From Chloroflexota bacterium (GTDB lineage Bacteria > Chloroflexota > Dehalococcoidia > Bin125), in the NCBI GenBank assembly GCA_009838735.1, contig VXQZ01000037.1, positions 165,370 to 229,369 on the forward strand: DNA of 64,000 bases, read 5' to 3'. Positions within the stretch are counted from its first letter, which is position 1. The number at the start of each line of letters is the position of its first letter. The position numbers and the translations under genes were made by a program. This document shows positions 42,515-62,283 of the stretch, one piece after another. The notes below the pieces were generated by a model. That model searched no databases. It worked only from the letters and a program-made list of their open reading frames with translations, and had not been told where the DNA came from.

Positions 42515-45500
42515 GTGAAGCCTCCTGTACCCCTAGAAGAACCGCCACCCGCCGCGCAACCTCCGAAAACCAGCCGACCTCCGACACCTCCAGTCCCCGA
42601 TCCAGCACCTTCGACTCCCGGTAGCTCAGCCACTTCTTGAGGACCTGGTAGCCGCCGAGGCGGTAGCTCCAGACTTCGATGGGTATGTCCCGCCAATACG
42701 CGTTGTCGTTGAGGTAGACGTCGACCAAGTCTCCTCGTCGCTCGATCTTCCCCTGGCCGGGCATGACGGCTTTATTGGCTCCAAAGTGGCCCCAGCCGGC
42801 GGTGAGGTGGAAGTCGGCGGGTTGCATGGGGAGGCCGTCGACCGTGGTGGGGACGGCGATGTGGGTGTTGTCGGCGAGGAGGTCGGCGACGTCAGACTCG
42901 GTGTCGAGCAGGCGTGCGAGGCGGTGGCCTCGGGCGGCGGATTGGGCGAGCTCGGCAGGGTCGTCGGGCAGGGGGATGCGGGGCCAGCCCATGCGCAGTC
43001 CGCCGGCATTAGCCTCGCGGTAGGCGGGGTCGTGCAGCGTGGCGAGGACATGGTGGAAGAGATCCTCGGGCGTAGCGTCCATGGACTCGATAGAGGCCCG
43101 CGCCCGCTCACTCAGATTGGCGGTCCGTTTGACGCCGTCCACCTCCTCGCCGAACTGGTCGTCTCGGAGGTAGAGGGGGATGCACGTGGCGCCTCGGTCG
43201 AACAGATCGAGGCATCCGATAGGAGAGATCACTTGTGCCGGCGACCATTCGCGACGGGGCTTCTGTTGAGACACAATCGCCATGTTGCCGGCGAACACGT
43301 GCGGCTGATACTCCGGGCGCGGGCGATCTAACAGGCTTGACGTAGAGGACCAGTAGAGCCAGCGGACATCGAACGGACGGTAGGCGAAGCGGACGAAATC
43401 GGAATCGGTTGTCTCGACATGGTTACCGACTTGCTCCTTGAGCTGCTCCAAGTCGAGGCCAACGACAAGTGAATCGCGGCTCGTTTTCACGCCTGGGTAG
43501 TAGGCGGGAAAGAGACTTACCAAGGTCGGCCAATCGAACCAGTTCTCGCTCACCGCAATCGGAGCGAATGGCAACCCCAGCCCCTTCATCGGTCTCAGGT
43601 GGCGGTACTGCTCGGACGGATCGGGGTTAGCGTCTTCGTCTAGTTCACGGAGCTTGCCTGTCCCCCACAGTTCCCGCCAATCAACCCGCTCCGGAGACTT
43701 ATGCTTCTCTTTCCGCACCAACGTCGCAATCGCCGTACCGACCTGGATGCCGACCGGATCGTCCTTGGTTGAGAACACGCTCGGATCGGAGTCCCCTTCG
43801 GGCGTGAGCTTACCGGTGCGGTACTTGTCTCCGTTGAGGTTGTCGATGCGGATGATGTCGAAGGCGTCGAGGTAGCGCTGTCTCATGCCGGGGAAGGAGA
43901 GGCCGTCGAGCCAGGAGTAGTTGCTGATGAAGCAGACGATGCCCTTGCCGGTCTTCTCGGCGATCCGGCGCTCGGCCATGCGGAAGAAGCGCACGTAGAG
44001 GTCGTTGAGTCCCTGGCCCTGCGGCTTGGGCACGTCGGGTCCGGAGACTGGTTGTTTAACGGTGCGGTAGGCGTCCGACAGCGCCCGCTCCTCCGGCACG
44101 TCGGGCACGCCGGGGAAGCCGTTGTATGGCGGGTTGCCGAGCACGACCAGGATCGGACGCTGCTGCTTGACCTGGTTGGCGCTGCGGCGCTCCTGTTCCA
44201 GCTCGGGGAAGGGCAGCGGCTTGGTCGTGTGCGGTTCCCAGCCGGTCAGGGCGTTGGTCAGGAAGACGCCGGCGCGCTGGTTGGGCGAGAGTCCCGCGCC
44301 CAGGCGCTCCAGCGCGAGTCCGATTTCGAGGTGCGAGACGACCAACGGGGCGGGCATGATCTCGAAGCCGAAGACGCGGGTCGCAGCGGCCTGGCGGACC
44401 GACTCGGCCCAGGTCGCGCCGCCTGATGCTTGCTCGGTCTCGGCGATCCGCCGCAGCGTCTCGACCAGGAAGGCGCCCGTGCCGCAGCAAGGATCGAGCA
44501 CATAGACGCGTTCGTCGGCCAGTCCCTTGGCAATGCCGAGGTCGTCGCGCAGCGCCCGGTCGACGCGCGCCACCATGTAGCGCACGATCTCGCGCGGCGT
44601 GTACCAGACGCCTAGCGATTTGCGCAGTTCGGGGTCGAACGCCTCAAGGAACGGCTCGTAGAAATACTGCACCGCCTCGCCCTCGCTGAAGCTCTTGAGG
44701 AACGCCTCGCGGTCGACCCGTTCCAGCGCCGCCTCGACCCAGTCGAGCACCTCGTCCAGTCCCAGCCGCTCCAGCCGGCCTGGATCCGTGATTTGATGGA
44801 AGAGCATGCGCAGCACCGGCGCACGCAGTTCGTAGACCGTGTCTTTCCAGCCGAAGCGTCCCGGCTTCCCGGCCCGCGCCCAGAGCACCCAGGCGGCGAA
44901 GACGCCGTAGAACAGCGTCTGCACCAGCGTCGAACGGAAGAACCGGCCGCCGTCCTCGCTCTCGAAGGACATGCCCAGGGCCTGCTCGATCGCCTCGCGG
45001 ATCGTGGCCAGCGAATCCTCTTCCTCGGCCGCCTGCTCGACCCGCTGCAGCGCGTCGCGGGCGTATGAGGCGAGCAGCCGGGCGAGGTCGCGGGGCTCGG
45101 AGATGGTCGAGCGGTGCGACATCACGCGCAGCAGGTACTCGCCCAGCGAGACCCCGTGCCGGTTGGCGGCGCGCGTGGTGTGTTGGAGCAGTTCGTCGAA
45201 ACCGGCGACGGAGTCTGCGAGCGAATAGCGCTCCAGGGTCGCCATTGCGCCGCCGTTGTCCTGTCCAACCAGCGCGAACTCGCGCAGGTTGGTCACGAGG
45301 ACGAGCTTGCGGGCCTGCCAATACTGTTCGACCTGCTCGGAGGCGATCAACGCATCGAGGTCGGCGTCGGCGCCCTTGACCTCGACTACGCCGCGATCCG
45401 GGTCGGTGCTCTCGCCGGAGAAGAACCCGAGGTCGGGCTGGCCGGGATTGGTCTCGCTGTAGTGAACGACGGCGCGGACCTTCGGCGTCAGTTCGTCGCC

Positions 45501-45617
45501 GACGGCGTCGAAGAGGTTGTCAAGCGCGGTGTAGTGCGAGAGCTCCGGTGTCCCGACGCGGCTGACGGCCGAGATCGCGTCGAGGTACTGCTTGACAGCT
45601 TGGCGGATGTCACTCAC
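42507..45617 (-). CDS. Type IIG/ISP-like restriction-modification enzyme
   Basis: 1036 aa from a GTG. The N-terminus (~50-85) has a PD-(D/E)xK-like nuclease motif (QPDLGFFSG...VVEVKG). The central N6-adenine methyltransferase domain has motif I VLDPCCGTGAFLVETLRRI (~375) and motif IV VLGNPPYNGFPG (~495). The C-terminal third has the extended specificity region with LPMQPADFHLTAGWGHFGANKA and ends in YLNDNAYWRDIPIEVWSYRLGGYQVLKKWLSYRE. Cleavage, methylation and target recognition thus lie on one polypeptide, so no separate specificity subunit is needed. No helicase motifs are evident, unlike true type ISP enzymes. It ends in an 8-bp overlap with the pentapeptide gene. Confidence 0.83.
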   Translation of the reverse strand: MSDIRQAVKQYLDAISAVSRVGTPELSHYTALDNLFDAVGDELTPKVRAVVHYSETNPGQPDLGFFSGESTDPDRGVVEVKGADADLDALIASEQVEQYWQARKLVLVTNLREFALVGQDNGGAMATLERYSLADSVAGFDELLQHTTRAANRHGVSLGEYLLRVMSHRSTISEPRDLARLLASYARDALQRVEQAAEEEDSLATIREAIEQALGMSFESEDGGRFFRSTLVQTLFYGVFAAWVLWARAGKPGRFGWKDTVYELRAPVLRMLFHQITDPGRLERLGLDEVLDWVEAALERVDREAFLKSFSEGEAVQYFYEPFLEAFDPELRKSLGVWYTPREIVRYMVARVDRALRDDLGIAKGLADERVYVLDPCCGTGAFLVETLRRIAETEQASGGATWAESVRQAAATRVFGFEIMPAPLVVSHLEIGLALERLGAGLSPNQRAGVFLTNALTGWEPHTTKPLPFPELEQERRSANQVKQQRPILVVLGNPPYNGFPGVPDVPEERALSDAYRTVKQPVSGPDVPKPQGQGLNDLYVRFFRMAERRIAEKTGKGIVCFISNYSWLDGLSFPGMRQRYLDAFDIIRIDNLNGDKYRTGKLTPEGDSDPSVFSTKDDPVGIQVGTAIATLVRKEKHKSPERVDWRELWGTGKLRELDEDANPDPSEQYRHLRPMKGLGLPFAPIAVSENWFDWPTLVSLFPAYYPGVKTSRDSLVVGLDLEQLKEQVGNHVETTDSDFVRFAYRPFDVRWLYWSSTSSLLDRPRPEYQPHVFAGNMAIVSQQKPRREWSPAQVISPIGCLDLFDRGATCIPLYLRDDQFGEEVDGVKRTANLSERARASIESMDATPEDLFHHVLATLHDPAYREANAGGLRMGWPRIPLPDDPAELAQSAARGHRLARLLDTESDVADLLADNTHIAVPTTVDGLPMQPADFHLTAGWGHFGANKAVMPGQGKIERRGDLVDVYLNDNAYWRDIPIEVWSYRLGGYQVLKKWLSYRESKVLDRGLEVSEVGWFSEVARRVAVLLGVQEASRE

Positions 45618-46025
45618 TGATTGCCCAATTTCCTTACCGATGTTCTCCGCATTCTCGCTCAGATCAGCAAGAGCGGTCGAACGGCCGTTGATTCCCTGAC
45701 AAGAAGATCCGAGGTTGTCGCAATCGTGGCAAGTGTCTAGACAAGGAACATCTAGTCACCCGCGAGGGTATTCGAGCACCACCTGAGGCAAGTGTCCGAT
45801 TTGCAGCGCCTGCGGTCGGCACTGAGCTGGTTCTCGGATTTGTGTCGACTCACAAGGCCAGGCAGTCGACTTCCGCACAGCGCACGTGCGACGCGCGGTG
45901 GTTGTGGTGGACTGGGCTGCCGCACCGCCAGACGGCAGAGGAATAGATCGCCGCAAACTGCGATCAGCCATATTCCGTGGTCCATCCGGAGGATCTCGCG
46001 AAAACCCCGAATATCGCATCCGTGC
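45618..46025. other. Divergent intergenic region between R-M and toxin genes
   Basis: About 410 bp, no credible gene. It holds a 10-bp palindrome TGTCTAGACA (45734-45743). Promoters for the leftward R-M gene and rightward toxin gene must lie here, but only the toxin -10 box at its right edge is clear. Confidence 0.45.
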
Positions 46026-46031
46026 TATGAT
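46026..46031 (+). promoter_or_regulatory. Candidate -10 box for a leaderless toxin transcript
   Basis: TATGAT lies only 6 nt before the GTG start of the toxin gene, so transcription from it would begin at or next to the start codon and give a leaderless mRNA. There is no ribosome-binding site before the GTG, in agreement. The -35 region is weak. Confidence 0.35.
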
Positions 46032-46037
46032 CTGGGC

Positions 46038-46400
46038 GTGCCGACCGTACGCTACTTCGAGGATGCAGACGGTTCGATTCCGGTCTTCGACTACATCGAC
46101 TCCTTGGATCAGGCGGGACGCGGCGCAGAGGCGGCGGGCATGCTCTCGGACATCGACCTGTTGGCGGCGATCGGCATGCCGGGCGCGCAGCAGAGGGGCT
46201 GGTCGTTCAGCCGACTCATCGATCCCGAACTCAGGATCTGGGAATTGCGGCCCGGCAACCATCGGATCGCATACGCCGCCATTGCGGGCGACCTCGTGCT
46301 TCTGCACGCCTGGCGGAAGCAGACGCAGAAACTCGATGCTAGGGCGTTGCGGCGCGCCCAACGCAACTACTGGCGCGCCGTGGACCGGATCGGCCAGTGA
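46038..46400 (+). CDS. Gp49/HigB-like toxin of the RelE/ParE superfamily
   Basis: 120 aa from GTG 46038 (VPTVRYFEDADGSIPVFDYI); the ORF-track start is far upstream and lacks homology. The body has the phage-derived Gp49-like pattern: an early PVFDYIDSL helix, LLAAIGMPGAQQRGWSF, then the core strands LIDPELRIWELRPGNHRIAY, VLLHAWRKQTQKLD and a final helix. Members are ribosome-dependent or free mRNA interferases or ParE-like poisons, paired with an XRE antitoxin encoded downstream. Here the downstream gene begins 28 bp later and is an unusual XRE fusion. The conserved Arg/Lys residues of the strand core (RIWELR, HAWRKQ) are present, so the toxin is probably active. Confidence 0.78.
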   Translation: MPTVRYFEDADGSIPVFDYIDSLDQAGRGAEAAGMLSDIDLLAAIGMPGAQQRGWSFSRLIDPELRIWELRPGNHRIAYAAIAGDLVLLHAWRKQTQKLDARALRRAQRNYWRAVDRIGQ

Positions 46401-46428
46401 CTCCCCTCCGCGCGAAAGGATGACGACC

Positions 46429-47487
46429 ATGGCAACTCCGGCCGGACCCACCCACGAAGAGATGCGCGATCGCTTGCTCCAGAAAGGCAGCTCAGAGCTA
46501 CGAGAGGAATACGCCCGCCTCGGACCGCGACGAGACGCCATCGTCGCGTTGTTCCGCGCACGCCAACTGCGCAAGTTGACACAGTACGAACTCGCTCAGC
46601 GGGCGGGCGTCAGCCAGGGAGTGATCAGCCGACTTGAGAGCGGCGGACACAGTCCCAAACTAGAGACGCTTGAACGAATCGCCAGAGCGATGGACTTCCG
46701 CCTAGAGCTCAAGTTAGTGGACGACCGCGAGCGCGGCGCCGCCGCGAGCGGCACGGTCGCCGGGCGTCGACGCGAACGACCGGCGGCTGAGATGGTGGAT
46801 ACTCAGCCGACCGACGGACAGTCGAGTCGTGAGACGCGGTTGGCGGAGACCACTGCAGCCGGGTACGAACTCTTGAGGCAAACAGCAGATGCCTATCGAG
46901 ACCAGGGCTATGAGGTCTCAATTGAAGAGGAGCTCGATTTTCTGCCCGGGTTCCGAGCCGACCTGTTGGCGCGCAAGGGCGATCAGGTACGGGTGATCGA
47001 AATCAAACCTCGCTCCATTGTGGTCAACTCAGGCGCGCTGGACCAACTGGCGCGAGCGATTAAGGAGCAACCGGGCTGGAGTCTCGACGTGGTGCTGGGG
47101 GCCGAAACGGAGCAGCAGGAGCCGCCGCGCGCGGTGGACCCGTTCATTCGCGAGCATGTGCAGCGCCGGCTCGATGAAGCCGAGCAGGTGCTTGACGAAG
47201 GGCACCCCGAGTCGGCCTTTCTGCTGGCCTGTTTGGCGTTCGAAGCGAGGATCGGACGGCCATTTGACGACCGCGGCCGATTGCGTGAGCGATTCGCGGA
47301 ATTCGCCCGGATGTCGGAACCGGCGGCGATTCGGGGCATGTTCTCGGCGGAGGAGCGGGAAAGACTGATCCGTCTCTGGGAACTGCGAAATGCGATCGTC
47401 CACGGCTACCACGCGCCTGAGTTCAACGAGGCTTCGGTCAGGGAACTGATCGATGTTGTTCGAGAACTTGGTACTGCTGCCGCCTGA
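46429..47487 (+). CDS. XRE-HTH / nuclease-like / HEPN-like fusion, antitoxin position
   Basis: 352 aa from ATG 46429, with GAAAGGA 8 nt upstream (the ATG at 46420 would overlap that site). Residues ~35-95 are an XRE helix-turn-helix (LTQYELAQRAGVSQGVISRL), as expected of the antitoxin for the toxin just upstream. After a charged linker, ~145-225 resembles a PD-(D/E)xK fold: YEVSIEEELDFLPGFRADLL then VRVIEIKPRS (Asp178, Glu191, Lys193). The C-terminus (~240-345) is helical with a HEPN-type R-x4-H motif, WELRNAIVHGYH (Arg320, His325). Ordinary antitoxins of this class are ~100 aa. The two extra putative nuclease domains suggest that the unit is more than a toxin-antitoxin pair; their activity is inferred from motifs only. 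Confidence 0.68.
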   Translation: MATPAGPTHEEMRDRLLQKGSSELREEYARLGPRRDAIVALFRARQLRKLTQYELAQRAGVSQGVISRLESGGHSPKLETLERIARAMDFRLELKLVDDRERGAAASGTVAGRRRERPAAEMVDTQPTDGQSSRETRLAETTAAGYELLRQTADAYRDQGYEVSIEEELDFLPGFRADLLARKGDQVRVIEIKPRSIVVNSGALDQLARAIKEQPGWSLDVVLGAETEQQEPPRAVDPFIREHVQRRLDEAEQVLDEGHPESAFLLACLAFEARIGRPFDDRGRLRERFAEFARMSEPAAIRGMFSAEERERLIRLWELRNAIVHGYHAPEFNEASVRELIDVVRELGTAAA

Positions 47488-47849: not shown

Positions 47850-49763
47850 CTACTCCACTAACTCCATCTCCTTCAGAAAGCGCGACGGAGCCCTTTTCCA
47901 TCCGAACACCTCCCGCGAGTAGGTCAGCGTGAGACTGCTTTCGGCACGTGTTATCGCCACAAAACAGTTGCGCCGCTCTTCCTGGATTTCCTGGCTTGCC
48001 GGCCCCTTCTTTACGGCCCAATAGCTAGGTAGCTGATCTTCAACCAGACCAACCAGGTACACGTGCTGAAACTCCGCCCCCTTGGCCCCGTGAATGGTGT
48101 AACAGGGAACAGCCTCTTTTGGGGGCCTAGGCGTCTTCGCGCGAAGATCCAGCCCTTGCAATAGCACGTTCAGCGTGACTTGATCCCTACCAACCTCACC
48201 GGCAACCTCTGCCACCAGCTCGTGCCAGGTGTCAAGTTCCTCACTGAACTCATCTTCATCGTTGTCTGGCGGTCCCACATCTGGCAACGCGTCAAACCAC
48301 TTCAGAGCCATCTGAATGAAGCTCCAAAAGTCCAATTGCTCGGAGATCATCGGGATGCCGTTTGTCAAGAGCTCCCTCGTAGCCGGGTCCAATCCGGGGT
48401 TGTTAGACGCAACGCGTCGCCAAGCACGAAGGTAGTCAGCATCAGCAGCTGCAGCGTCGGCCACGATGTCCCGAACTTGCAGATTAGCGCCCGCCAACTC
48501 AAAGAACGACTTGCAAATCCGACGAAGTTGCTCCCTGTCCTGTCTAGAGTTCGCCAATCTGAGGATAGAGTGCAACCAAATCAGCTGTTGGCTTGTAAAC
48601 TCATCCTTTCGCATGGCTATGTAAGCAGGAATCTCTTCGGTCGCCAGAGCCTCAAGGATTGGTTCTAGTAGTCTCCGAGTGCGAGCAAGCACTACGCAGT
48701 TGCGGCGTTCCTGAACAGATCGGCCTGCCAGATCCGCTGCGACCCACGCCGCCTCGTCCTCAAAGCTGTGGAAGTCCTCCACTCTAATGACGTTGTCTGC
48801 CTCCTCCACTTTGTGAGCGACCAGCATCGACTTTTCGAAGATCCGAGTTACGTTGCCGCGTATGAGCTTGTTGGCAACGTCCACGACCTGAGCAGGGCAG
48901 CGGTAGTTCTCTGGCAGCTGAAGTACGGTGACGCCGAAGTCGTCTCTCAGAGAGAGCAGTCGCTTTGGGTCCGCGCCATTCCATTGATAGATCATCTGAT
49001 CATCGTCGGCGACCACGAACAGGTTTCTCGTCGTGGGGTCAACGACGTTCACAAGCACGCGATACTGTGCCAGATTGGTGTCCTGAAACTCGTCGACACA
49101 AACATACGGGTAGATGCGATTAATCAGGCGGCGGATAGCTGCATTGCCTTCCATTAGGGCAATAGCCTCGGCGATCAGCGAGCCAAAGTCCAACTGGTTG
49201 TTTTCCACCATTAGTCGCCGGAAGGAAGAATAGACAGCCGCCAATGCCTCCGCATCTCCTAGATTGCGATGGCGAAGATCCTGTAGAGCACGATCCGGAG
49301 CCACACAATCGTCCAATAGGCGGTTGATCATCGGCAACAGTTGTTCTCCTCGGAGGGCGAAATCGGGAAACTGCTTGCCCGCATCCTGGATGGCCTCATC
49401 AAGTACGGACTCTCTATCCACGGTTTGGGACAAGATGGTGAAGTTGGGCTCTAGCCCTATGTGGTGTCCGTGCTGTCGCAGAATGTCCACACAGAAAGAA
49501 TGAAAGGTCGTTAGCCGTATCCGGTCTCCCGCGTTGGGTACAAGCTGCTCGATTCGCTCTCGCATCTCTGCCGCCGCCTTGTTGGTAAACGTGAGCCCGA
49601 GAAGTCGGAAAAACCTGTTTGGGTTCTCCTCCACTATCCTGGCAATGCGGTATGTGAGCACCCTCGTTTTGCCGGAACCTGGACCAGCCAGCACCAGAAG
49701 AGGACCGTCGCCCCAGTTCGCTGCTTCGAACTGGCTGGCATTCAATGAGGACAGGTCAACCAT
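47850..49763 (-). CDS. gajB: Gabija helicase-like protein GajB (UvrD-type)
   Basis: 637 aa. Superfamily 1 helicase motifs in order: Q motif LNASQFEAANW, Walker A VLAGPGSGKTRVL (~25), Ia LGLTFTNKAAAEMRERI, II YVCVDEFQDTN, III NLFVVADDDQMIYQWNGA, IV region VLQLPENYRCP, V TIHGAKGAEFQHVYLVG and VI CFVAITRAE near the C-terminus. Its start overlaps the GajA stop by 8 bp and has GGAGG upstream within gajA, so the two are coupled. Classical GajB is ~500 aa; this one is longer, near UvrD length. Paired with a class 2 OLD nuclease it forms a Gabija-type anti-phage system, in which GajA cuts DNA and GajB assists. Confidence 0.82.
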   Translation of the reverse strand: MVDLSSLNASQFEAANWGDGPLLVLAGPGSGKTRVLTYRIARIVEENPNRFFRLLGLTFTNKAAAEMRERIEQLVPNAGDRIRLTTFHSFCVDILRQHGHHIGLEPNFTILSQTVDRESVLDEAIQDAGKQFPDFALRGEQLLPMINRLLDDCVAPDRALQDLRHRNLGDAEALAAVYSSFRRLMVENNQLDFGSLIAEAIALMEGNAAIRRLINRIYPYVCVDEFQDTNLAQYRVLVNVVDPTTRNLFVVADDDQMIYQWNGADPKRLLSLRDDFGVTVLQLPENYRCPAQVVDVANKLIRGNVTRIFEKSMLVAHKVEEADNVIRVEDFHSFEDEAAWVAADLAGRSVQERRNCVVLARTRRLLEPILEALATEEIPAYIAMRKDEFTSQQLIWLHSILRLANSRQDREQLRRICKSFFELAGANLQVRDIVADAAAADADYLRAWRRVASNNPGLDPATRELLTNGIPMISEQLDFWSFIQMALKWFDALPDVGPPDNDEDEFSEELDTWHELVAEVAGEVGRDQVTLNVLLQGLDLRAKTPRPPKEAVPCYTIHGAKGAEFQHVYLVGLVEDQLPSYWAVKKGPASQEIQEERRNCFVAITRAESSLTLTYSREVFGWKRAPSRFLKEMELVE

Positions 49764-51504
49764 TTCTGGCCTCCTCCGCCAAGTGTATCGCGCAGTTTAG
49801 GATGTCAGCCAGTTGCGAGGGAACGCCCGTGACGCCATTTCGCCTGATCTCGTTGGCCACCTCAACGGCAGCGGGAATCTTTGCTTTGTTGGCTTGGGAT
49901 CTGGACACCTGCTCCCAGTACTCGAGAGATCCTTGTGACGCAGTTACATTGCTGGCCTTGTTCTGCGAGATGTAACTCTTGTACACATAGCCATACCCTT
50001 CCACACTCAAGAACACTTCCAAGGTGCCATGCTGTAGTTGGCTGATGTGTTGTGTAGCTTGCCTGCCTGCGAGTTGTTTCTCGGCGGCCTTGACGTAGTC
50101 ATCGCCTGCTTTGTCATTGTCTGCAACGAGATGCCATTCTATGCCCATCGAATCGGCAAACGTGGTCAGCGCCTCAACCCCGACGCCGATCTGTCTGTAC
50201 TCGATGAAACTCACGCCTTCGTATGCGAGATTGCGATTCATTGCCTCGGCGCATCCCTCTAGAATCAACCGATCCGCTTCACCCTCTACTAACAGCCAAC
50301 AGCGAGCAAACAATACGCTTCCTCGGTTTGAACGAATGTGGTAGTTCACCTTCCTCATCTCGTCCTCGTCGAGAATACCTGTTGTCAGATGGTGAACGGT
50401 GATTTCGCCATTCTTGCGCCGCAAACGTCGCAAGGATGTAATCGAACAGGCCCCAACGAGATCGCCTGAATGAGAGGTGAGTAGCTTCTGGCCGCTGAGG
50501 CCCTGCAGGAGAGTAGCCACTGAGTGGATTGCTGCAGGGTGCAAGTGGGCCTCAGGCTCCTCGAGGGCCAGTATCGGCGTCGTGTCGTCCCGGTAGGTGT
50601 CTGTCATCCTGCTCTGCAGGAAGGCGTCGAACAGACAAACGACCGCCAAGCTCTGAGTCCCTTCCCCATGTCTGCCGATAGGCAGGCGAGCGCCGGTGAC
50701 TGATGAGAGCATCACCTGCGTCCGTGACAGAATGTCGAACACTCTTGAGGGGATTGCCTCAATGCCCACCGGGTCATCAGTCGCCAAAGGCACAATCGTC
50801 TTCGTGTTGCTCAGTCGCTCCTCGATGGCACCGAATGATTCGTTTGCATCGAGAACCCTCTGGTTCAGATGAGCGAGCTCCTCTTCCAATTCTTGTCTGA
50901 CGTCGGGTTCCATCTTCGAGAATCGAACGAAGGGCCTCCAGAACTGCCCCCGTGGCGTAAACTCCTGCGCGGAGTCGCGGAGCGCAGACAGGTAGAAGAC
51001 TGGCACCAGTTGTCGCAGGGCGTCTAGCAAGGCAGGATTCCGTGCGCCAACCAATTCGTCGCCGGCAGGATTCAGGAAGGTCCAAGCCGTGACGAAGTCG
51101 CCCAGGAGATCGTCGAACTGGCTTCGGACTCTAAAAGTCACTGCCTGTTTGTCGTCCGCCGATACCTGTACCGCTTCTCCCAGTGCTTGGACGACTTCGT
51201 CTGGCCATTCGCCTTCCGACCGTTCGAGGAATCGGAGAGTGATCTCAATCCCATCGCTGTCAGAGGGTTGACTGTCCTTGGTTGGAAGGCGATAGTCATA
51301 TTCTGAGAATGCGCCTCCTCGCCTCCCGAGCCTTCGGCTCAAACAGACCTCAAGGGCCGCAAGAATCGTGGACTTTCCGGTGTTGTTTTCGCCGATCAAG
51401 ACCGTGGTTTCGTCCAGCTTCAACTCGAGCCGACGGATGCCTCTGAAGTTCTTTATCTCGATCTGGTCCAAGAACACTGCGTGAGTCCTCCCTTGGTCAC
51501 TCAT
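49756..51504 (-). CDS. gajA: Gabija nuclease GajA (class 2 OLD: ATPase plus TOPRIM)
   Basis: 582 aa from ATG 51504 (MSDQGRTHAVFLDQIEIKNF), close to the usual GajA length; the ORF track adds 85 codons that run into a transposase remnant in another frame. The ABC-type ATPase has Walker A LIGENNTGKSTILAA (~37), signature-like IGRHGEGTQSLAVV and Walker B PILALEEPEAHLHP with LLTSHSGD. The TOPRIM domain has CWLLVEGEADRLIL (Glu) and WHLVADNDKAGDDYV (DxD), the metal-binding set for nicking. In studied systems the nuclease is released when nucleotide pools fall during phage replication. All catalytic motifs look intact. Confidence 0.85.
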   Translation of the reverse strand: MSDQGRTHAVFLDQIEIKNFRGIRRLELKLDETTVLIGENNTGKSTILAALEVCLSRRLGRRGGAFSEYDYRLPTKDSQPSDSDGIEITLRFLERSEGEWPDEVVQALGEAVQVSADDKQAVTFRVRSQFDDLLGDFVTAWTFLNPAGDELVGARNPALLDALRQLVPVFYLSALRDSAQEFTPRGQFWRPFVRFSKMEPDVRQELEEELAHLNQRVLDANESFGAIEERLSNTKTIVPLATDDPVGIEAIPSRVFDILSRTQVMLSSVTGARLPIGRHGEGTQSLAVVCLFDAFLQSRMTDTYRDDTTPILALEEPEAHLHPAAIHSVATLLQGLSGQKLLTSHSGDLVGACSITSLRRLRRKNGEITVHHLTTGILDEDEMRKVNYHIRSNRGSVLFARCWLLVEGEADRLILEGCAEAMNRNLAYEGVSFIEYRQIGVGVEALTTFADSMGIEWHLVADNDKAGDDYVKAAEKQLAGRQATQHISQLQHGTLEVFLSVEGYGYVYKSYISQNKASNVTASQGSLEYWEQVSRSQANKAKIPAAVEVANEIRRNGVTGVPSQLADILNCAIHLAEEARNG

Positions 51505-51568
51505 CGACCACTGTAGGTGGCGATCTGAATGCGGCAAAGGCACGGAGCACGACCTACCTGGGACCAGC

Positions 51569-51706
51569 TCACATGGAAGGCACCATGACTTCCACGACCG
51601 CAAGGTGGATCCCGTTGAAGTGAGAAATGTCGCGCCAGTCGTATCGGGCGGCGATCCATCGGAAGCCCTTGAGACGCTTGACGAAGCACTCAACCTCGAT
51701 GCGACA
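51569..51706 (-). mobile_element. IS5-family transposase C-terminal remnant
   Basis: Leftward frame reads RIEVECFVKRLKGFRWIAAR then YDWRDISHFNGIHLAVVEVM and TGA at 51569. The pattern ExxFxRLKxFRxIAxRYDxxxxxFxxxxxLA is the conserved end of IS5-group DDE transposases, holding the catalytic Glu. An in-frame TGA cuts it at the 5' side, and no more of the element remains. It lies ~65 bp upstream of the gajA start. Confidence 0.65.
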
Positions 51707-52238
51707 CAGTCACGACGGACATCGTAGGTCCGAAGTGGGTGCCGATTGGATGTGCGCAAATCGAGCGAGAGGTTGCCGAGCGATCACGGAGGCTCCGAAG
51801 TCGGTCGCCTTCGTCGGCACCACTCACGAGCAGAGCTGAGCGAGGCGAGACCGGGCAGAGCCTGCGCAGCGATGCGCGTTTGACAGGTCCCGGGGCAGCC
51901 TGACCAGAGCAGAGCGTCCGCGTTGTAGGAACTCACTCGCCGCCCGCATTGGCTTGCAGGTTGTTGAGCAAGCCGCAGTTCGAGCGACAGTTGCCTTGTC
52001 GCCCCTCTTCTTGGGCGTTCCGCGTCCGAAATCGGTTTCAGAACCCCTCGGATGCAGACTCACCCGGGTCCTCTCGGTCCCGCACTCTGTGCATCAGGGG
52101 AACTCCAGGTGTGGAACGCACCCGGAGCATCCTCGCTTCCGCTGACGCTGAGCCGTTCTTCGAAACCAGCGTCTGACTTCGATGTTGGGCAGACCGGCAT
52201 ACCGGTACGCCAGGACGAGCAACGGCACACGGGGTCGG
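51707..52238. other. Non-coding region upstream of the Gabija pair
   Basis: About 530 bp with no convincing gene; ORFs have no ribosome sites or family features. It may include further IS debris. The gajA promoter should lie between here and 51505, but none stands out. Confidence 0.4.
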
Positions 52239-52565
52239 TCATCCTTTCTCCAGCAGATCAGAGACCTCGCGGATACGCACAGGAAAAGTGAGCGTGATCG
52301 TGCTCCAGTCACGGCGATTGTCGAGGCCGTCGTAGCGGTGGACGAGGACGGCTCGCACACCGATGACCGCGTTGTGCTCGGTGATGCGTGCGGCAAGCGA
52401 TTGGTCGCGAACCGACAATTGGGCCGTTGCTTCGCAGAGGATCGTCAGCTGATGCTCGACGGGCGAGCGGAGAAGGATGTCGTACTCGGCGAAGCTCTTG
52501 CCGTCCGCGAACTGGGTGACCAAGAGCGCGGCGTCAAGAATGTCGCGCAGGTACTTGTTGGCCCT
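52239..52565 (-). CDS. hepT: HepT-like HEPN toxin, possibly with lost start codon
   Basis: The frame reads RANKYLRDILDAALLVTQFA, LRSPVEHQLTILCEATAQLS and RAVLVHRYDG, ending at 52239. The last is the HepT R-x4-H-x-Y motif, where Arg and His are catalytic and Tyr is the site AMPylated by MntA. Normal HepT proteins begin at or just before the KYLRDIL helix, but in this frame no ATG, GTG or TTG occurs there; the ORF-track TTG at 52523 would remove the first helix. The sequence GCCCAGGGCCAAC stands where the usual overlapping ATGAGG start/stop is expected. The gene may therefore be inactivated, or start at a rare codon. It overlaps mntA by 32 bp. Confidence 0.68.
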   Translation of the reverse strand, partial: RANKYLRDILDAALLVTQFADGKSFAEYDILLRSPVEHQLTILCEATAQLSVRDQSLAARITEHNAVIGVRAVLVHRYDGLDNRRDWSTITLTFPVRIREVSDLLEKG

Positions 52566-52896
52566 GGGCCGTGTACAGGGACGTCCTGATCTCTGCGACT
52601 GCCTTTGCGAAGTATGGGTTGCGAAATGGCTGATCGATCACGAGATCAACTGGGCGATCGAAGACTCTGACGAGGGCTGCCTGTAGCTCGAGGTGCTTGC
52701 TAAACCACGGATCCGGGTCGGCATCGGGCCGATAGGCGACTATGAAATCAAGGTCACTGCTCTCCGGATGGAACTCGCCGCTGGCGGCTGAGCCGAACAA
52801 GTCGAGCCGCTCCACCTGATACAAGCGGCACAGTTCGGCGACCTCGCCACTGTGGTCGGCGATCAGAGAGTTCACGGCAATTCCCTCGGCGCTCAC
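52534..52896 (-). CDS. mntA: MntA-like nucleotidyltransferase antitoxin
   Basis: About 120 aa from GTG 52896, which has GGAGG 5 nt upstream; the ORF-track GTG at 52908 has no such site. Minimal nucleotidyltransferase with the GSx(n)DxD active-site motif: LFGSAASGEFHPESSDLDFI, followed by RPVDLVIDQPFRNPYF, the third acidic position. MntA transfers AMP onto the Tyr of HepT and so silences it. The C-terminus (LYTAQGQQVPARHS) is ~9 residues longer than the typical end at LYxA, in line with a small mutation that removed the original stop and the HepT start together. Confidence 0.78.
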   Translation of the reverse strand: MSAEGIAVNSLIADHSGEVAELCRLYQVERLDLFGSAASGEFHPESSDLDFIVAYRPDADPDPWFSKHLELQAALVRVFDRPVDLVIDQPFRNPYFAKAVAEIRTSLYTAQGQQVPARHS

Positions 52897-52908: not shown

Positions 52909-53365
52909 GGGTTCAGCCTACCCAATCTCTGGGTGTCCGATATCTCTACTTTGGCCTACTGACAAGGGGCCTGGCTAATCCATTGCTCGGACGACACGCT
53001 GTCCTCACACTCACGGGCAAGACCCGGCTGGCCGATACAAGACTCCGACGACTGCCAACTGTTCTCAACGAGCTAGCCGCTCTTCTTCCTCTGCAGCTGG
53101 CTACATCCGCGCGCGGACCGTCAGCGGGCCGGCTCGCCGTTAGCCCAAACCGCCCAATCCGCTGTCCAGCCCTGAGCCAACCTTCGCTCATAGCCGACAT
53201 GCAGGAGTGGCCTGGCTATGTTTTCCTGTGTGGTGAACGATGTATTGGATACCATCGGCCAACGGTTCTGATCGCGCGAGAAACACCAGGCCCAGTGACT
53301 GCCAGCGCATCACCTTTCGGCCTGTTGTCCAGGAGCAAGAGCCCCCCAAATCGAATACCGTACAC
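52909..53365. other. Intergenic region between divergent mntA and Crp-like genes
   Basis: About 455 bp. No coding-like frame or RNA gene recognised. Promoters for both flanking genes are expected here but none is distinct. Confidence 0.4.
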
Positions 53366-55425: not shown

Positions 55426-57063
55426 TCAGTCCAGGCCGCGCGGCGCCCTGTGCTCGATCGAGCGCCAGGCGCGGCCCAGGGGACCGTGCTGTTCGAGCCT
55501 CAAGCGGTCGGAGACCAGCAGCGGCAGGGGCACCTCAGCCCGGGCGACGGCGTCTGCGGCGATGCGGAGGAAGTGATCGGCGGCCAGCTCGTCCTCGAAC
55601 ACCACCAGCACCCTGGGCAGGAGGCCATGGTCCTCGATCGGCCGAGCGGTGGCGTAGTAGCGCAGGTAGGGCGCGAGCCGGGCCGCCATCGTCGCCGGAC
55701 GCACGGCGCGCCGCTCCCATTCGAGGAAGAACCCCTGCTCGCCTGAGGGCGTCTCCACGAGCGCGTAGGCGTCAGGTTGGATCGAGCGCATGCGCTCAAA
55801 TGACCGGAAGTAGCGCGAGGCGCGGTGGGGCGGGTCGAGCTGGACCAGCCGGGCGCCCTGCTCGCGCGCCTGGCGGGCCAGCAGCGTGTTGAACCAGTGC
55901 ACCGACTCGGTGTGCTCGAGGTTGCGCAAGAGCTGGCGCGAGCAGATCCCTGCGACGTTGCGCCAGTCGAACGCCTCTCCCGCCCAGCGCGGTTCGGGGC
56001 TCCAGCGCTTGCGCGCGATGCCGACCGAGGTGCGGTCGCGGCGGGCCAGGTAGGCGAGGCCGCGGTCGGAGAGCGCGAGCCGCGGCACGCCCGCTCGGGT
56101 GAGTCTCGTAATCAGACCCAGTTCGTCCAGCCGCGCGAGCAACTGCGTCAGCCGGCGCCGGCCGACGCCGAGCAGCGCCGCCAAGTGGCCGGGCCTGAGC
56201 CAAGGCCAGTCGCCGACGAGGTCGAGCGCGCGTTTCTCGGCCGTGGTGAGCGCGGCGGGCAGCATCCACGAGGCGCGGGCGAACCCGGGATCCAGCGGTT
56301 CGGGCATCGAGACGCGGACCAGGGGCCGCTCCGACCGTTCGCCCGAGGCCGGCAGCGCGTAACCGAGCGCCTCGCGCAGGGTCAGTCGCGCCGCGCCGGT
56401 GGGACCGCGCCAGACGGCGGCCTCGGCGCCGGCCAGGGCGACATCGCGTTCGAGCGCGAGGAACGCAATCGCCGGCGGTCCCGCGACCAGCCGCCGCGCG
56501 TGGCGCAGGCGGGTCTCGTCGGGACAGAGTATGAGCACCGCGCCGTGGCCGGGGGTCTCCTTGAGCCGGCGGATGCGCTTGGCGAACCCGGTCCGGTCCG
56601 CCGTCCGGCCCTGGCGCACCACGGCCGCGCGGAGGTCACCTGGCAACTCCAGCAGGGCGTCCATCGGCGCGGCCCTGAGCCAGGGCAGATCCAAGGGGAA
56701 GGCAAACTGGGCGGCCTGCTCGGCCAGGCGGTAGATCACGGCGGCTAAGTCCAGTCGTTCGAGCAGCAGCCGGCGCCACTGCTCGGAGACGGGCCGAGTG
56801 CGCAACAGCTGGGTGACAGGCACGCCTTCCTCCGAGGCCAGCCGGCGCACACCCCTGGCGGTCAGGCAGAACCGGCGGGTCGGGGTGACCAGTTCCGAGG
56901 CCTGGCCGACCGACTCCACCAAGCCGGCCTCAGTGAAGCGGTCGATTCGCTGGTAGACGGCGGCGCGCGAACGGCCCGAGAGCGCGGCCAGCTCCAGCCG
57001 GTCGAGGAACGGCATCCGGGCCAGCGTCACGAGCAGCTCGACGTCTCCGGGGTAGAGCCTCAT
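55426..57063 (-). CDS. Replication-relaxation family protein
   Basis: 545 aa. An N-terminal winged helix (LLVTLARMPFLDRLELAALS...AAVYQRIDRFTEAGLVE, ~10-55) and a second one in the middle (PWLRPGHLAALLGVGRRRLTQLLARLDELGLI, ~285-335). The C-terminal half has the family pattern IQPDAYALVETPSGEQGFFL then EWERRAVRPATMAARLAPYL, seen in replication-relaxation proteins of actinobacterial and Gram-positive plasmids and conjugative elements. Its exact activity is not settled; it is linked to plasmid replication or relaxosome function. The start overlaps the stop of the VirD4-like gene by 4 bp. Confidence 0.72.
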   Translation of the reverse strand: MRLYPGDVELLVTLARMPFLDRLELAALSGRSRAAVYQRIDRFTEAGLVESVGQASELVTPTRRFCLTARGVRRLASEEGVPVTQLLRTRPVSEQWRRLLLERLDLAAVIYRLAEQAAQFAFPLDLPWLRAAPMDALLELPGDLRAAVVRQGRTADRTGFAKRIRRLKETPGHGAVLILCPDETRLRHARRLVAGPPAIAFLALERDVALAGAEAAVWRGPTGAARLTLREALGYALPASGERSERPLVRVSMPEPLDPGFARASWMLPAALTTAEKRALDLVGDWPWLRPGHLAALLGVGRRRLTQLLARLDELGLITRLTRAGVPRLALSDRGLAYLARRDRTSVGIARKRWSPEPRWAGEAFDWRNVAGICSRQLLRNLEHTESVHWFNTLLARQAREQGARLVQLDPPHRASRYFRSFERMRSIQPDAYALVETPSGEQGFFLEWERRAVRPATMAARLAPYLRYYATARPIEDHGLLPRVLVVFEDELAADHFLRIAADAVARAEVPLPLLVSDRLRLEQHGPLGRAWRSIEHRAPRGLD

Positions 57064-59654
57064 TGTTCGGCTCCGTCCCGCTCGGCCGGCGTGGCCTCAC
57101 CGGGTTTCTTCCGGTCGCGCGTCTTCGGCTCGGGCCGCGCGGCCTTGGGCTTCTGCTGCTTCTTCTGCTGCTGTTGTGGCGTCTTGTCCGCTTCGCGCCA
57201 GGCTTCCATCTGCTCGCGGAACTCGGCCACCGCCCGCTGGCGCTCCGTCTGCTGCCGCTCCAACTCATGCGCCGAGGTGACGTAGGTCGAAGCGGCCTCG
57301 CGGATCCGTGCCGCCCGCAGCGGGTCGCCCGGATCGGGCTTGCGCACCGTCATCGAAAAGACCGGCATCCGCTGGGTGCCGACCGTGGCCCGCACGTAGC
57401 AGTGATGCACGGGCTGGGAGACCACATCTTCTTCAGAGACCCGCTCGCGGCCCAGCTCCCAGAGCAGGTCGCGGGCGTCCTCGCCCGAGACCTGGAAGAC
57501 GCAGAGACAGCCGACGTTGGCCATCAGCGTGTGACGCATCGTCGGCGAGAGGTCCTGGAGCTTGGCCAGACTCTGAGTGGCGAGCACGAATGAGGCGCCG
57601 TACTTGCCCAGTTCGGCCAGCATCGACTCGAACTCGACACCGGGAATGGCCTGCATCTCGTCGACCACGACCAGCGCGCCGCGGCGCTGGTGCTGCGGCA
57701 GCCGTTCCTGCTCGCGGATGACCGAGTCGACCAGGTTGAGCAGCGACGCCCCGACCAGGGCGGCCACATCGCGGCCGACCGAACCCTGGGCGGTCGAGAC
57801 CAGGAGGATGCCGCCTTCGAGGATCGTCTTGCGCAGGTCGATCGTCGACTGCGGCTGGCCCAGGATCGCGCGGGCGCGGCGGGAGGAGGCGTAGTAGCTG
57901 AGCCGGGTCTGGACCGGGGCCAGGGCCTCGGCCCGGTACTCGCGGCGCCAGCCGCCGAAGTCCCGTGCCCACCATTCCAAGAGGAAGGGGTCGGAGACCC
58001 GGGTCAGCACTTCGGCCCGGAACCCGTCGTCGGTGAGCAGCCTGAGCCCGTCCAGGATCGTGTGCTGGCGATCGGGCTCGGTCAGGGGATGGCTGTTGGC
58101 CTCGTGCAGCGTCTTGACGGTGTGTTCGAGGATCGATTGCATCCGCGGCCCCCACTGCTCCCACAGCCCGCGGGCGACCCGTACGACCGAGTCGGCGGTC
58201 CGGTCGCGGTCCGCGAACACGCGCGCGTCGAGCAGGTTGATCCCCGGCGCGCCCGTGGGGTCGGCGAGGTCGATCAGCCGGACCTGGTTGACCAGCTCCT
58301 CCGGCGTCTCCTCGAGGATCGCCTGGACCAGGTCGGCGTGCGGGTCGATCACGACGACGGCGTCCGAGTCGAGCCCCTCGGCCTTGCGCTTGAGCTTGTG
58401 CCCGACGATGTGGCGCATCAGGGTCGACTTGCCCATCCTGGTGCGGGCCACATAGAGGTGGTGGCGACCCAGCAGGTCGTCGGGGAAGTGGACCGGTTCG
58501 CGGTCGGCCTCGCTGGTCGTCCCGACCGCGGCCCCGCCGGCCAGTTCGCCGACCGCCGGCGGCAGCGCGCGGGCGCCGGCGCGGGCCACGAGCGGCGACT
58601 CGTCGGCGGCCGAGGGCGGATGCCAGAGCGCCGCCGCCTCGCGCACCCCGAGGATGCTGCGACGGCGGAACATTCTTGGAGGACGCGGATGCAGGCGCGG
58701 CAGCCCCGGTTCCAGGGGCCCGATCTTGCCTGCTTCGAACTGCGCCCCGGAAGGATGGTCGTAGTGGCGGTAGGCCCCAGCCAGCCGCTCCAGCAGCTCC
58801 TCCGCCCGCTCTTCCTGCGAGCCCTCCGGCAGCACCGCGACCAGCTCCAACTCGGCCTCGAACGCGCCGCGCGAGATCTTCTCCTTGACCAGTTGCGGAT
58901 CGAAGTAGCGATTGCGCGACTTCTTCCACCTGCGCCAGCCCCAGCCACCTCCAATCAAGACGACGGCCGCCCCCGCGCAGAGCGCGGCCAGGTGCCAGAT
59001 CTCGCCCGCCTGCAGCCAGCGGTAGCCCTGGAAGAACCCGAACGCGGCCAGGCCGAGCACGGTCAGGGCCAGCGGGTCGGGACCTGTTCCCGACGGCGGC
59101 GGCGCATTGGGTTTGGGCTGGCGCTGGAGATGAGCGGGCTGCGCCTTCTCCTGGTAGTGGCGCGACCACTGGGGGCCCAAGGAGCGCAGCAGCAGACGCG
59201 AGACCAGCCGCTCGCCCTCCTTGAGGCCGGTGAGCGCGCCCAGGGGGGCGAGCAGCGGGTCCGAGCCCGGGTCGACCAGGTCCTGGTCGCGGAACACGCG
59301 TAGGGGCGCGTACTCGGGGCCCGAGGCGCGCAGCACCAGCGACCAGGCCTGCTCATCCTCGTCCAGGCGCATGTAATCGCGCTCAGAGGGCACGTCGCGC
59401 ACGCGGGCCTGGGGGTAGTGGACGCCGACTTGGCCGCGCACGATCTGGTCGCCCGCGCAGCGGACATAGAGGCCGATTGAGCGTTCGTCGGCCGCCAGTT
59501 CCAGCGCGAACGGCTCGGGCGCCGCGATCGAGCCGAGCAGGTTCTCGACGCCCAAGAGCGTCCTTTGTCCGGTGCGCGGCGGCGTGACCGCCAGCAGCGC
59601 CGGGCCCGACGGTTTGGCCGAGCGCCTGAACCATCTGAGTGGGTTCAACTTCAT
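57060..59654 (-). CDS. VirD4/TraG-like conjugative coupling ATPase
   Basis: 864 aa, ATG with AAAGGA 7 nt upstream. Two membrane helices at ~200-240 (LALTVLGLAAFGFFQGYRWL, LAALCAGAAVVLIGGGW) follow a cytoplasmic N-terminal domain. The motor domain has Walker A ARTRMGKSTLMRHIVGHKL (~415), Walker B AVVVIDPHADLVQAI, a second acidic motif GALVVVDEMQAIPGVEFE and sensor FVLATQSLAKLQDLS. This matches TraG/VirD4-type and DUF87-type proteins that pump DNA into a secretion channel. The C-terminus is Gln/Lys-rich (TPQQQQKKQQKPK), maybe for contact with relaxase. The position next to the replication-relaxation gene supports a coupling role. Confidence 0.78.
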   Translation of the reverse strand: MKLNPLRWFRRSAKPSGPALLAVTPPRTGQRTLLGVENLLGSIAAPEPFALELAADERSIGLYVRCAGDQIVRGQVGVHYPQARVRDVPSERDYMRLDEDEQAWSLVLRASGPEYAPLRVFRDQDLVDPGSDPLLAPLGALTGLKEGERLVSRLLLRSLGPQWSRHYQEKAQPAHLQRQPKPNAPPPSGTGPDPLALTVLGLAAFGFFQGYRWLQAGEIWHLAALCAGAAVVLIGGGWGWRRWKKSRNRYFDPQLVKEKISRGAFEAELELVAVLPEGSQEERAEELLERLAGAYRHYDHPSGAQFEAGKIGPLEPGLPRLHPRPPRMFRRRSILGVREAAALWHPPSAADESPLVARAGARALPPAVGELAGGAAVGTTSEADREPVHFPDDLLGRHHLYVARTRMGKSTLMRHIVGHKLKRKAEGLDSDAVVVIDPHADLVQAILEETPEELVNQVRLIDLADPTGAPGINLLDARVFADRDRTADSVVRVARGLWEQWGPRMQSILEHTVKTLHEANSHPLTEPDRQHTILDGLRLLTDDGFRAEVLTRVSDPFLLEWWARDFGGWRREYRAEALAPVQTRLSYYASSRRARAILGQPQSTIDLRKTILEGGILLVSTAQGSVGRDVAALVGASLLNLVDSVIREQERLPQHQRRGALVVVDEMQAIPGVEFESMLAELGKYGASFVLATQSLAKLQDLSPTMRHTLMANVGCLCVFQVSGEDARDLLWELGRERVSEEDVVSQPVHHCYVRATVGTQRMPVFSMTVRKPDPGDPLRAARIREAASTYVTSAHELERQQTERQRAVAEFREQMEAWREADKTPQQQQKKQQKPKAARPEPKTRDRKKPGEATPAERDGAEQ

Positions 59655-59704
59655 CTGAGTGTCCTTTCGTTATGTCGGTCAGTGGGAGCGGGCCATCGGG
59701 CGGC

Positions 59705-61939
59705 TCAGTGCCGGCCCGGGCGCCACTCGATCAACTCGGTCTCCTCGGGCGTCGCCTCGATCCGGATGGGAAAGCGCTCGCCCTTGGCCAGCAGCAGCCC
59801 GTCCCCGCGGGGGCAAGAGACCAACCAGCGCTGCAGGTCCTCGGGCAGGTCGAAGGCATCGGCCACGGTCGAGATGGCGGCCGCGTCCTGCTGCAGCAGG
59901 AGCTTGAACGCGGCGTTCTGCAGCAGCGCTCTCCCTGAGTGCCCCGTGATAGTGCGCGAGTGGTCCTCGGACAGGAGATCCTGCACGTCCTGGGTGATGA
60001 ACTGCAGGCCCAGGCGGTGCTTGCGCGCCCGCTTGGCCATCGAGACCATGAACGCCGCGCCCTCGGGATGCTGCATGATCGACCAGACCTCGTCGACCAC
60101 CAAGAGGCGCGGTCGCGGGTCGCGGGCGGCCGCCGCCCAGACCGTCTCGGTACAGACCATCGCCGCCGCCGGCCGCAGCTCCGGTTCGAGCAGCCTGAGG
60201 TCGAAGACGGTGACCAGCGCCTCGTTGTGCAGCAGGTCGTCGCCCTCGTCGGAGAGCAGGTGGCGGAGACTGCCCGAGGCGAAGGGGCGCAGCAGCTTGG
60301 CCAGGCCCTCCGGGTCGTCTTCCTCGAGGAAGCGGTAGAAGTCTCGGAAGCCGGTGCGCTTCGAGGGCCGCGCGTAGTAGCTCGCCAGGGCGTGGTCCAG
60401 CGCGGCCCGCCGTTCGGCGCTCAGACGCTCGCCGATCATCACCTCAATCAGTCGGCGCAAAGAGCCGATCCGCTGGAGCAGCTCCTCGGGGTCCGAGCGA
60501 TCGAGCACGAACGGGTTCATGCCCTGTCCGGCCACGCCGGGCGAGACCACGCGCCCGCCGGCCGAGCGGGCCATGTCGGCGTACTCGCCCTCCGGGTCAA
60601 TCACATAGGCGACCACGCCCCGGCAGAGACCGCGCAGCACGCCCAGCTTGGTCGCGAACGACTTGCCGGAGCCCGAGCGGGCCAGCACGGCCGTGTTGGC
60701 GTTGAGATGGGTGCCGTCCCAGGGGTCGTAGACGATGGGCGCGCAGGCGCGCATGTCGATCCCGTAGAGCGCGCCCGAGCGGGTGTCGAGGTCGGGCGGC
60801 GAGAACGGGAAGCAACGGGCGACCGAGGACGTGTCCAATGTGCGCCAGGCGGCGACTGCGTTCAAGGACAGTGGCTGGGTCGAGAGCAGGCCCTCGCGCT
60901 GGCGGAAGGGCAAGGGGTCGAGCCGGCCCAGCGCGGCGGCGAAGTGGGCCGAGGCGCGCTGAGTCAGTTCGTCCAGGGTGTCGGGGTCGTCCGCGTGCAG
61001 GGTCAGCGAGAGCGAGGCGTGGAACAGCCGCTCGCGGCCGCGCTGCACGTCGTCCCTGAGCCGGCTCACGTCCTCCAGCGCGATCTCGGCCTCGGGCGAC
61101 ATCGTCTTGCCGCGCCTGAGCGAGAGCGAGCGGGCCGACTCGAAGCGCACCTTCTGCCACTCCAGCTGGCGGGCGGCCTGCTCCGAGGGGATCGGGCCCA
61201 GGTGCAGCGCGATGTCCATTGGCGCGCCGGTCGCCATCAGCTGCTGCAGGAAGCCGGGCGCGAGCGAACGCGGCCATTTCGCCAGGTGCAACGAGCGGGC
61301 CAACCGCCCTCCAAGTTGGATGTGACGCTGGTTGAGCTGGACCTCGACCGGTTCATCGCGGCCGCTTCGCGCGGGCGAGCCGCCCAGGGCCGCAGCGATC
61401 ACGAGGCGCTGGAGCGGTTCACCTTCTAGCGGATGGATCGAGAGGCCGGAGCGGGCCAGGAGGCCGCGCAACTCCTGGGCGTGCTCCTCCTCGCAGATCG
61501 CGTAGAAGCGGCGGTCCAAGATGCCTTCGCGCGACTCCAGTTCGGTCAAGAGCCGGCGCTGGGAGCGGGCCGCTTCGCGGGTCTGGTCGGGCAGGTCGCC
61601 GGGCTGGGCCTGTTCCAGTTCGCCCCGCATCCGTTCCAGGTCGGGCGGATGCTGGCGGACCAGCAGCTGCACGGGGAAGTCGCAGGCGTTGAGCAATCCC
61701 GCGAAGGCGCCCAGCTTGGGCCCGTCCAGTTCCAGCCCCATCAGCTCGGTCAGGGCGAGCTTGACCCCGTCCAGGCGCACCGGGCCGTCGGGCTCGACGT
61801 GCGAGAGCATGAAGCAGAGCGGCAGCTCGGGGAACTGCCTCTGTGGTTGTGGGTCCTCGGCTGGCTGCTCCGGCTCCTCGGCCTCGTCCGCATTGGGTGG
61901 TGCCTCCTGCACCGTCGGAATGGAAAACAGTCGTCTCAT
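59705..61939 (-). CDS. VirB4-like type IV secretion ATPase
   Basis: 744 aa from ATG 61939 (MRRLFSIPTVQEAPP); the ORF track runs upstream through the pilin gene in the wrong frame. The N-terminal VirB4/TraC-like domain (~40-380) includes FPELPLCFMLSHVEPDGPV and RESLxL-type SLSLRRGKTMSPEAEIALED. The ATPase has Walker A VLARSGSGKSFATKLGVLRG (~425), VVAYVIDPEGEYADMA, Walker B PRLLVVDEVWSIMQHPEGAA and QFITQDVQDLLSE. VirB4 energises pilus assembly and substrate transfer. An acidic/Pro-rich N-terminal segment (EEPEQPAEDPQPQ) is unusual. It is 17 bp after the pilin gene and 50 bp before the coupling protein gene. Confidence 0.83.
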   Translation of the reverse strand: MRRLFSIPTVQEAPPNADEAEEPEQPAEDPQPQRQFPELPLCFMLSHVEPDGPVRLDGVKLALTELMGLELDGPKLGAFAGLLNACDFPVQLLVRQHPPDLERMRGELEQAQPGDLPDQTREAARSQRRLLTELESREGILDRRFYAICEEEHAQELRGLLARSGLSIHPLEGEPLQRLVIAAALGGSPARSGRDEPVEVQLNQRHIQLGGRLARSLHLAKWPRSLAPGFLQQLMATGAPMDIALHLGPIPSEQAARQLEWQKVRFESARSLSLRRGKTMSPEAEIALEDVSRLRDDVQRGRERLFHASLSLTLHADDPDTLDELTQRASAHFAAALGRLDPLPFRQREGLLSTQPLSLNAVAAWRTLDTSSVARCFPFSPPDLDTRSGALYGIDMRACAPIVYDPWDGTHLNANTAVLARSGSGKSFATKLGVLRGLCRGVVAYVIDPEGEYADMARSAGGRVVSPGVAGQGMNPFVLDRSDPEELLQRIGSLRRLIEVMIGERLSAERRAALDHALASYYARPSKRTGFRDFYRFLEEDDPEGLAKLLRPFASGSLRHLLSDEGDDLLHNEALVTVFDLRLLEPELRPAAAMVCTETVWAAAARDPRPRLLVVDEVWSIMQHPEGAAFMVSMAKRARKHRLGLQFITQDVQDLLSEDHSRTITGHSGRALLQNAAFKLLLQQDAAAISTVADAFDLPEDLQRWLVSCPRGDGLLLAKGERFPIRIEATPEETELIEWRPGRH

Positions 61940-61956
61940 GTTCGAGTTTCTTTCGT

Positions 61957-62283
61957 TCAGGAAAGCGGGATCGGGATCACGCCGGCCGAGATCAGCGCCG
62001 CCAGGCCCTTGGCCGAGAGCGCCACGCCGAGGCCCGCGATCGTGAGGAAGACGGCCGAGCGCCCACGGGCGCCGCGGCCCTCGGCGCCGTCGGCCATCAG
62101 CAGGAAGCCGGCCCAGACCATCCCGAACAGCGCTAGGCCGGAGGCGGCGTAGGCGACCGCGGTGAGCGCCGCGTCGAAGGCGTCGAGCATCGCCTGCTCG
62201 GATGCGTCCGCTTCGGGCGCGGCGGCGGTCGAGAGCAGCGCCGCCGCGCCCAGGGAGATGATCGAGATCAGTCGCCGCACCAT
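61957..62283 (-). CDS. VirB2/TrbC-like pilin or small membrane protein
   Basis: 108 aa from ATG 62283, whose first base is the last base of the upstream gene's stop (TAATG), so the start four codons earlier in the ORF track is less likely. Signal peptide VRRLISIISLGAAALLSTAA with ADA cleavage, then two hydrophobic helices (ALTAVAYAASGLALFGMVWAG, AVFLTIAGLGVALSAKGLAAL) around a short basic loop (GRGARGR). This is the size and topology of VirB2/TrbC pilins. The sequence is too short for a firm family call, but placement just before the VirB4-like gene supports it. Confidence 0.6.
   Translation of the reverse strand: MVRRLISIISLGAAALLSTAAAPEADASEQAMLDAFDAALTAVAYAASGLALFGMVWAGFLLMADGAEGRGARGRSAVFLTIAGLGVALSAKGLAALISAGVIPIPLS

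Follow-up and report, generated by a model that had tools for sequence, protein, structure and literature searches.

A HepT/MntA toxin-antitoxin pair in probable decay: loss of the toxin start codon through point substitutions in the gene overlap

We found a HepT/MntA pair, a class I toxin-antitoxin locus, on the minus strand of the window (the whole 64,000-nucleotide stretch of DNA analysed here). Its toxin gene has probably lost its translation start recently; HepT would then hardly be produced, if at all, leaving an intact MntA with no active partner. The upstream gene, mntA (52534-52875), encodes a predicted MNT-type adenylyltransferase antitoxin of 113 residues, its 10-residue C-terminal extension included; its start was assigned by alignment to relatives and is most likely the GTG at 52875. 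Directly downstream lies hepT (52239-52574), annotated here as a remnant or silent gene for a predicted HEPN ribonuclease toxin, with 111 codons counted from the homologous start codon. The open frame that contains it spans 52637-52239 and ends with the TGA at 52241-52239. As read from its sequence, the locus is filed as a degraded member of the HepT/MntA class and not as a working pair, because MntA is translatable but HepT has no standard start before codon 17. A HepT that is toxic, and whose toxicity is neutralised when the Tyr of RX4HXY is adenylylated, also belongs to the definition of the class.

The class assignment draws on domains, motifs and fold. MntA matched the Pfam family NTP_transf_2 (PF01909) with 43.3 bits and was placed by PADLOC in the candidate PDC-S09 (E 1e-27), and the HepT frame matched the HepT-like family PF01934 with 30.8 bits (cut-off 23.5), so that a PF01909 protein is encoded directly upstream of a PF01934 protein, the HEPN/MNT gene order. 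MntA is intact and keeps GSX11DXD and VDLV, and the RX4HXY motif is read as RAVLVHRY in the HepT frame; the original prediction had named this motif as retained and had allowed for the antitoxin enzyme being kept. An AlphaFold2 model of the HepT frame reached a pLDDT of 89, with helix 1 at residues 2-22. When this model was compared with the PDB by Foldseek, the best matches were SO_3166/HepT chains (TM 0.65-0.75, E only 0.02-0.2), whereas phmmer of the PDB with the HepT sequence gave no match, so the likeness was found by fold alone.

SO_3166/SO_3165 of Shewanella oneidensis is a HepT/MntA (HEPN/MNT) toxin-antitoxin system (PMC7641770, PMC4621449). The window pair has in common with it the position of MntA upstream of HepT, the PF01909/PF01934 combination, RX4HXY, overlapping stop and start sites, and a predicted HepT fold that matches 5yep, 6m6u and 7bxo. 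It differs from SO_3166/SO_3165 in having neither a HepT start codon nor the original MntA stop codon. The spacing of the MntA motif is also different, GSX11DXD against the published GSX10DXD, although most relatives studied here share the window's arrangement (spacing 11 in 97 of 118 counted rows). RX4HXY was retained in 114 of these 118 rows, which represent 117 distinct loci.

We then considered the missing start itself. From the upstream in-frame stop to codon 17, the HepT frame contains no ATG, GTG or TTG; the first standard start is a TTG at 52521-52523, inside the first helix. This bears out the expectation that no standard start precedes the conserved helix 1, and given the extent of that helix in the model, a HepT begun at the TTG would be without most of it. 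Two weak candidates were noted: an ATC 20 codons upstream, inside mntA, and a CTG at 52548-52550, the first downstream codon able to start HepT weakly, whose use would cost 8 residues. Chance can be set aside, since among the 117 distinct loci any standard start near the homologous position was absent only in the window and in L124 (the same place as L027, G014:C32); set apart in this count were L082 with a displaced ATG, L159 with an upstream TTG and L100, a frameshifted copy.

To establish what the junction looked like before, it was read first in 16 relatives (genus, family and class) and then in the 117 distinct HepT loci, drawn from whole genomes and genome_contigs and covering Dehalococcoidia, other Chloroflexota, Planctomycetota, Proteobacteria, Actinomycetota, methanogens and others. 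When the window HepT was used as a single-protein query, neither genome_contigs nor viral_contigs yielded a relative. The MntA stop stood exactly +8 from the homologous HepT start in 100 of the 113 loci with a readable MntA, giving an 11-nt overlap, mostly ATGNNNNNTRR, and HepT was in MntA's +1 frame in 112 of the 113 readable pairs. This overlap and frame are near-universal in the subfamily across many phyla. The ATGA junction that had been assumed as ancestral is thus not the one found in relatives. In two loci, L058 and L038, the N-terminal halves of MntA were near-identical to those of L065 and its close relatives, while the C-terminal halves and the HepTs belonged to another subfamily; the HepT end of the pair seems to have been swapped by recombination.

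Comparison with intact pairs of the genus located the changes. In L064, L033, L063 and L065, HepT is 61-65% identical to the window HepT, the closest values in the genus, and MntA about 64-70%; the frame is the same, the junction is gapless, and ATG and TAG are kept within the 11-nt overlap. Against the five closest relatives the junction aligned without a gap, with CTCTATGCCGCCTAGG in the relatives and CTGTACACGGCCCAGG in the window. The HepT start at 52572-52574 is ACA instead of ATG, which takes two substitutions, and the MntA stop at 52564-52566 is CAG instead of TAG, which takes one. Both signals have therefore gone relative to all close relatives, as originally proposed. In MntA, the T-to-C change of the start codon is synonymous (TAT to TAC, Tyr); in HepT, that of the stop codon falls in a Pro codon and is likewise synonymous, provided that the ancestor carried CCT like the closest relatives. 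MntA now ends at a TGA 30 nt further on (52534-52536), within the hepT frame, and its C-terminus reads ...LYTAQGQQVPARHS. The predicted overrun is real, but it amounts to 10 residues beyond the homologous stop (QGQQVPARHS) and not to about nine.

As judged from this alignment, the two losses are distinct point changes within a few bases of each other. No link between them is required, since in other pairs the MntA stop is displaced to +14 or +29 beside an intact HepT ATG; this indicates that extension of MntA is tolerated and is little guide to the state of HepT. The proposal that one small indel removed an ATGA, and both signals with it, does agree with the absence of both, but the gapless alignment, the unchanged frame (that of 112/113 pairs) and the different ancestral junction rule it out. 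A sequencing or assembly error hiding an ordinary start and stop could be entertained, the genome being a draft in 56 contigs. Three erroneous substitutions would have to fall within 11 bases, however, with no indel among them, in a place where nearby differences resemble ordinary divergence (60-65% protein identity to relatives), and the same ATG-to-ACA loss is found in an independent genome (L124). We regard such an error as very unlikely. Slightly more improbable still is an MntA-HepT fusion, for which ribosomes would shift by +1 within the open region that both genes share. HepT does occupy the +1 frame of MntA, and the missing MntA stop makes the shared open stretch 30 nt longer, yet the +1 frame is the normal arrangement of the family, no recognisable slippery site with a stimulator was seen by eye, and no fused homologue was noticed.

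Whether the toxin frame still bears the marks of selection was addressed with a codon model fitted to 14 sequences. On the branch leading to the window, omega for HepT was 0.065 (background 0.092), values above about 0.2 were disfavoured and an omega of 1 was rejected (p = 4e-4); synonymous sites are saturated on this branch, so that omega is a rough average or upper bound and no proof of timing. HepT thus appears to have been constrained for most of the window branch, and either its loss was recent or its expression persists; the low omega would place the start loss late on that branch. At the same time, the window HepT is altered at two of the 11 positions that about 95% or more of relatives conserve (R43H and L102R), whereas none of those eleven residues was altered in 101 of the counted rows/loci. 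It also carries V91D and a two-codon deletion before D34. These changed residues and lost codons look like signs of HepT loosening and count against full function. All catalytic residues of HepT are retained, which also fits residual translation from the CTG at 52550.

The original prediction had suggested that the toxin could now be silent. A silent or nearly silent HepT is the simplest reading of a frame with no standard start. Alternatively, HepT might be attenuated, with a useful low level made from the CTG at 52550, or from the TTG at 52523 by ribosomes that reinitiate once they have reached the new MntA stop at 52534. In favour of this, the frame is open and shows constraint, the CTG lies 8 codons into the protein, and the TTG follows the MntA stop by 10 bases, a place at which ribosomes finishing MntA could start again. 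On the other hand, CTG is a poor start codon with no clear ribosome-binding site, a TTG start would strip the modelled helix 1 of about 16 of its 21 residues, and conserved positions have changed. On balance we consider attenuation unlikely, and favour a recent loss of the HepT translation start. The ancestral HepT ATG stood within the mntA end (ATGNNNNNTAG), a position from which translation of HepT was probably coupled to that of MntA. It became ACA by two substitutions, one of them silent in MntA, and a separate substitution from TAG to CAG added 10 residues to MntA. HepT expression would then have been lost or nearly lost, MntA would have stayed expressed and active, and the loss of the toxin may have been neutral or mildly useful.

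Other broken HepTs were present among the relatives. Six of 117 HepTs were broken (window, L124, L069, L151, L153 and L100), and of 113 MntAs none was frameshifted or interrupted by an internal stop (Fisher p = 0.03 for broken HepT versus broken MntA; test post hoc). Broken HepTs made up 3/13 loci in the genus and 3/104 elsewhere (p = 0.02; also post hoc). For both tests, the loci are related and were found through HepT, some assemblies are drafts, and errors of assembly may account for some of the nonsense codons; the recurrence of broken HepT beside intact MntA is a hint only. L124, of the same genus, resembles the window in the change of HepT ATG to ACA, in having no standard start in the open frame and in keeping RX4HXY. 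Unlike the window, it keeps the MntA stop TAG, and it sits in a different subfamily on the tree, so its start loss was probably independent. The third locus of the genus, L069, has a nonsense codon at position 32 of HepT.

The pair lies in a region of defence-type genes. It adjoins a complete-looking Gabija pair at 47850-51759 on the minus strand, in which GajB (47850-49763; UvrD-like, 858 bits) overlaps GajA (49756-51759; OLD/DUF2813, PADLOC 702 bits; the ORF as listed probably begins too early, with the true start at about residue 90). Further defence-type genes of the same region are a type IIG/ISP-like restriction-methyltransferase gene (42507-45617, minus strand) and a gene for a protein with HTH_3 and AHJR-like nuclease domains (45886-47487, plus strand). 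On the other side, the minus-strand interval 55426-62440 encodes Replic_Relax, TrwB-like and TraG-like P-loop proteins that resemble conjugation and replication-relaxation proteins; this conjugative or integrative element extends in the direction of the contig end. Frames tested in the unassigned DNA at about 51620-52180 and at 52946-53215 had no Pfam match. Within the stretches compared, DNA similarity to genus relatives was limited to mntA-hepT, as expected for mobile cargo. A search of the window's own genome found no other HepT above the family cut-off and no other close MntA; with no such HepT above the cut-off, the idea that MntA is kept to neutralise another HepT of this genome was discarded. 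It is also conceivable, if quite unlikely, that the HepT start has been lost adaptively and more than once in the genus: a mobile element with other defence genes would keep MntA as an anti-addiction or regulatory enzyme, with toxin expression shut down or reduced to what a weak start allows.

Taken together, the locus represents a small, local decay of the toxin within a known system and not a new system. Orphan antitoxins left by degraded toxin-antitoxin pairs are known, for example from a Klebsiella survey (PMC7192599). As in those cases, the antitoxin is kept, here beside a toxin that would no longer work; unlike them, the window retains a toxin frame, largely intact, adjacent to the antitoxin. 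The locus is a clear snapshot of toxin-antitoxin pair decay, in which the overlapping junction lets the toxin start vanish through changes with a silent or mild effect on the antitoxin, which outlasts it. The retention of toxin motifs is by itself no evidence of a working system. For gene callers, the 11-nt HepT/MntA overlap and the frame kept across many phyla are useful, and there is a hint that broken HepTs next to intact MntAs recur.
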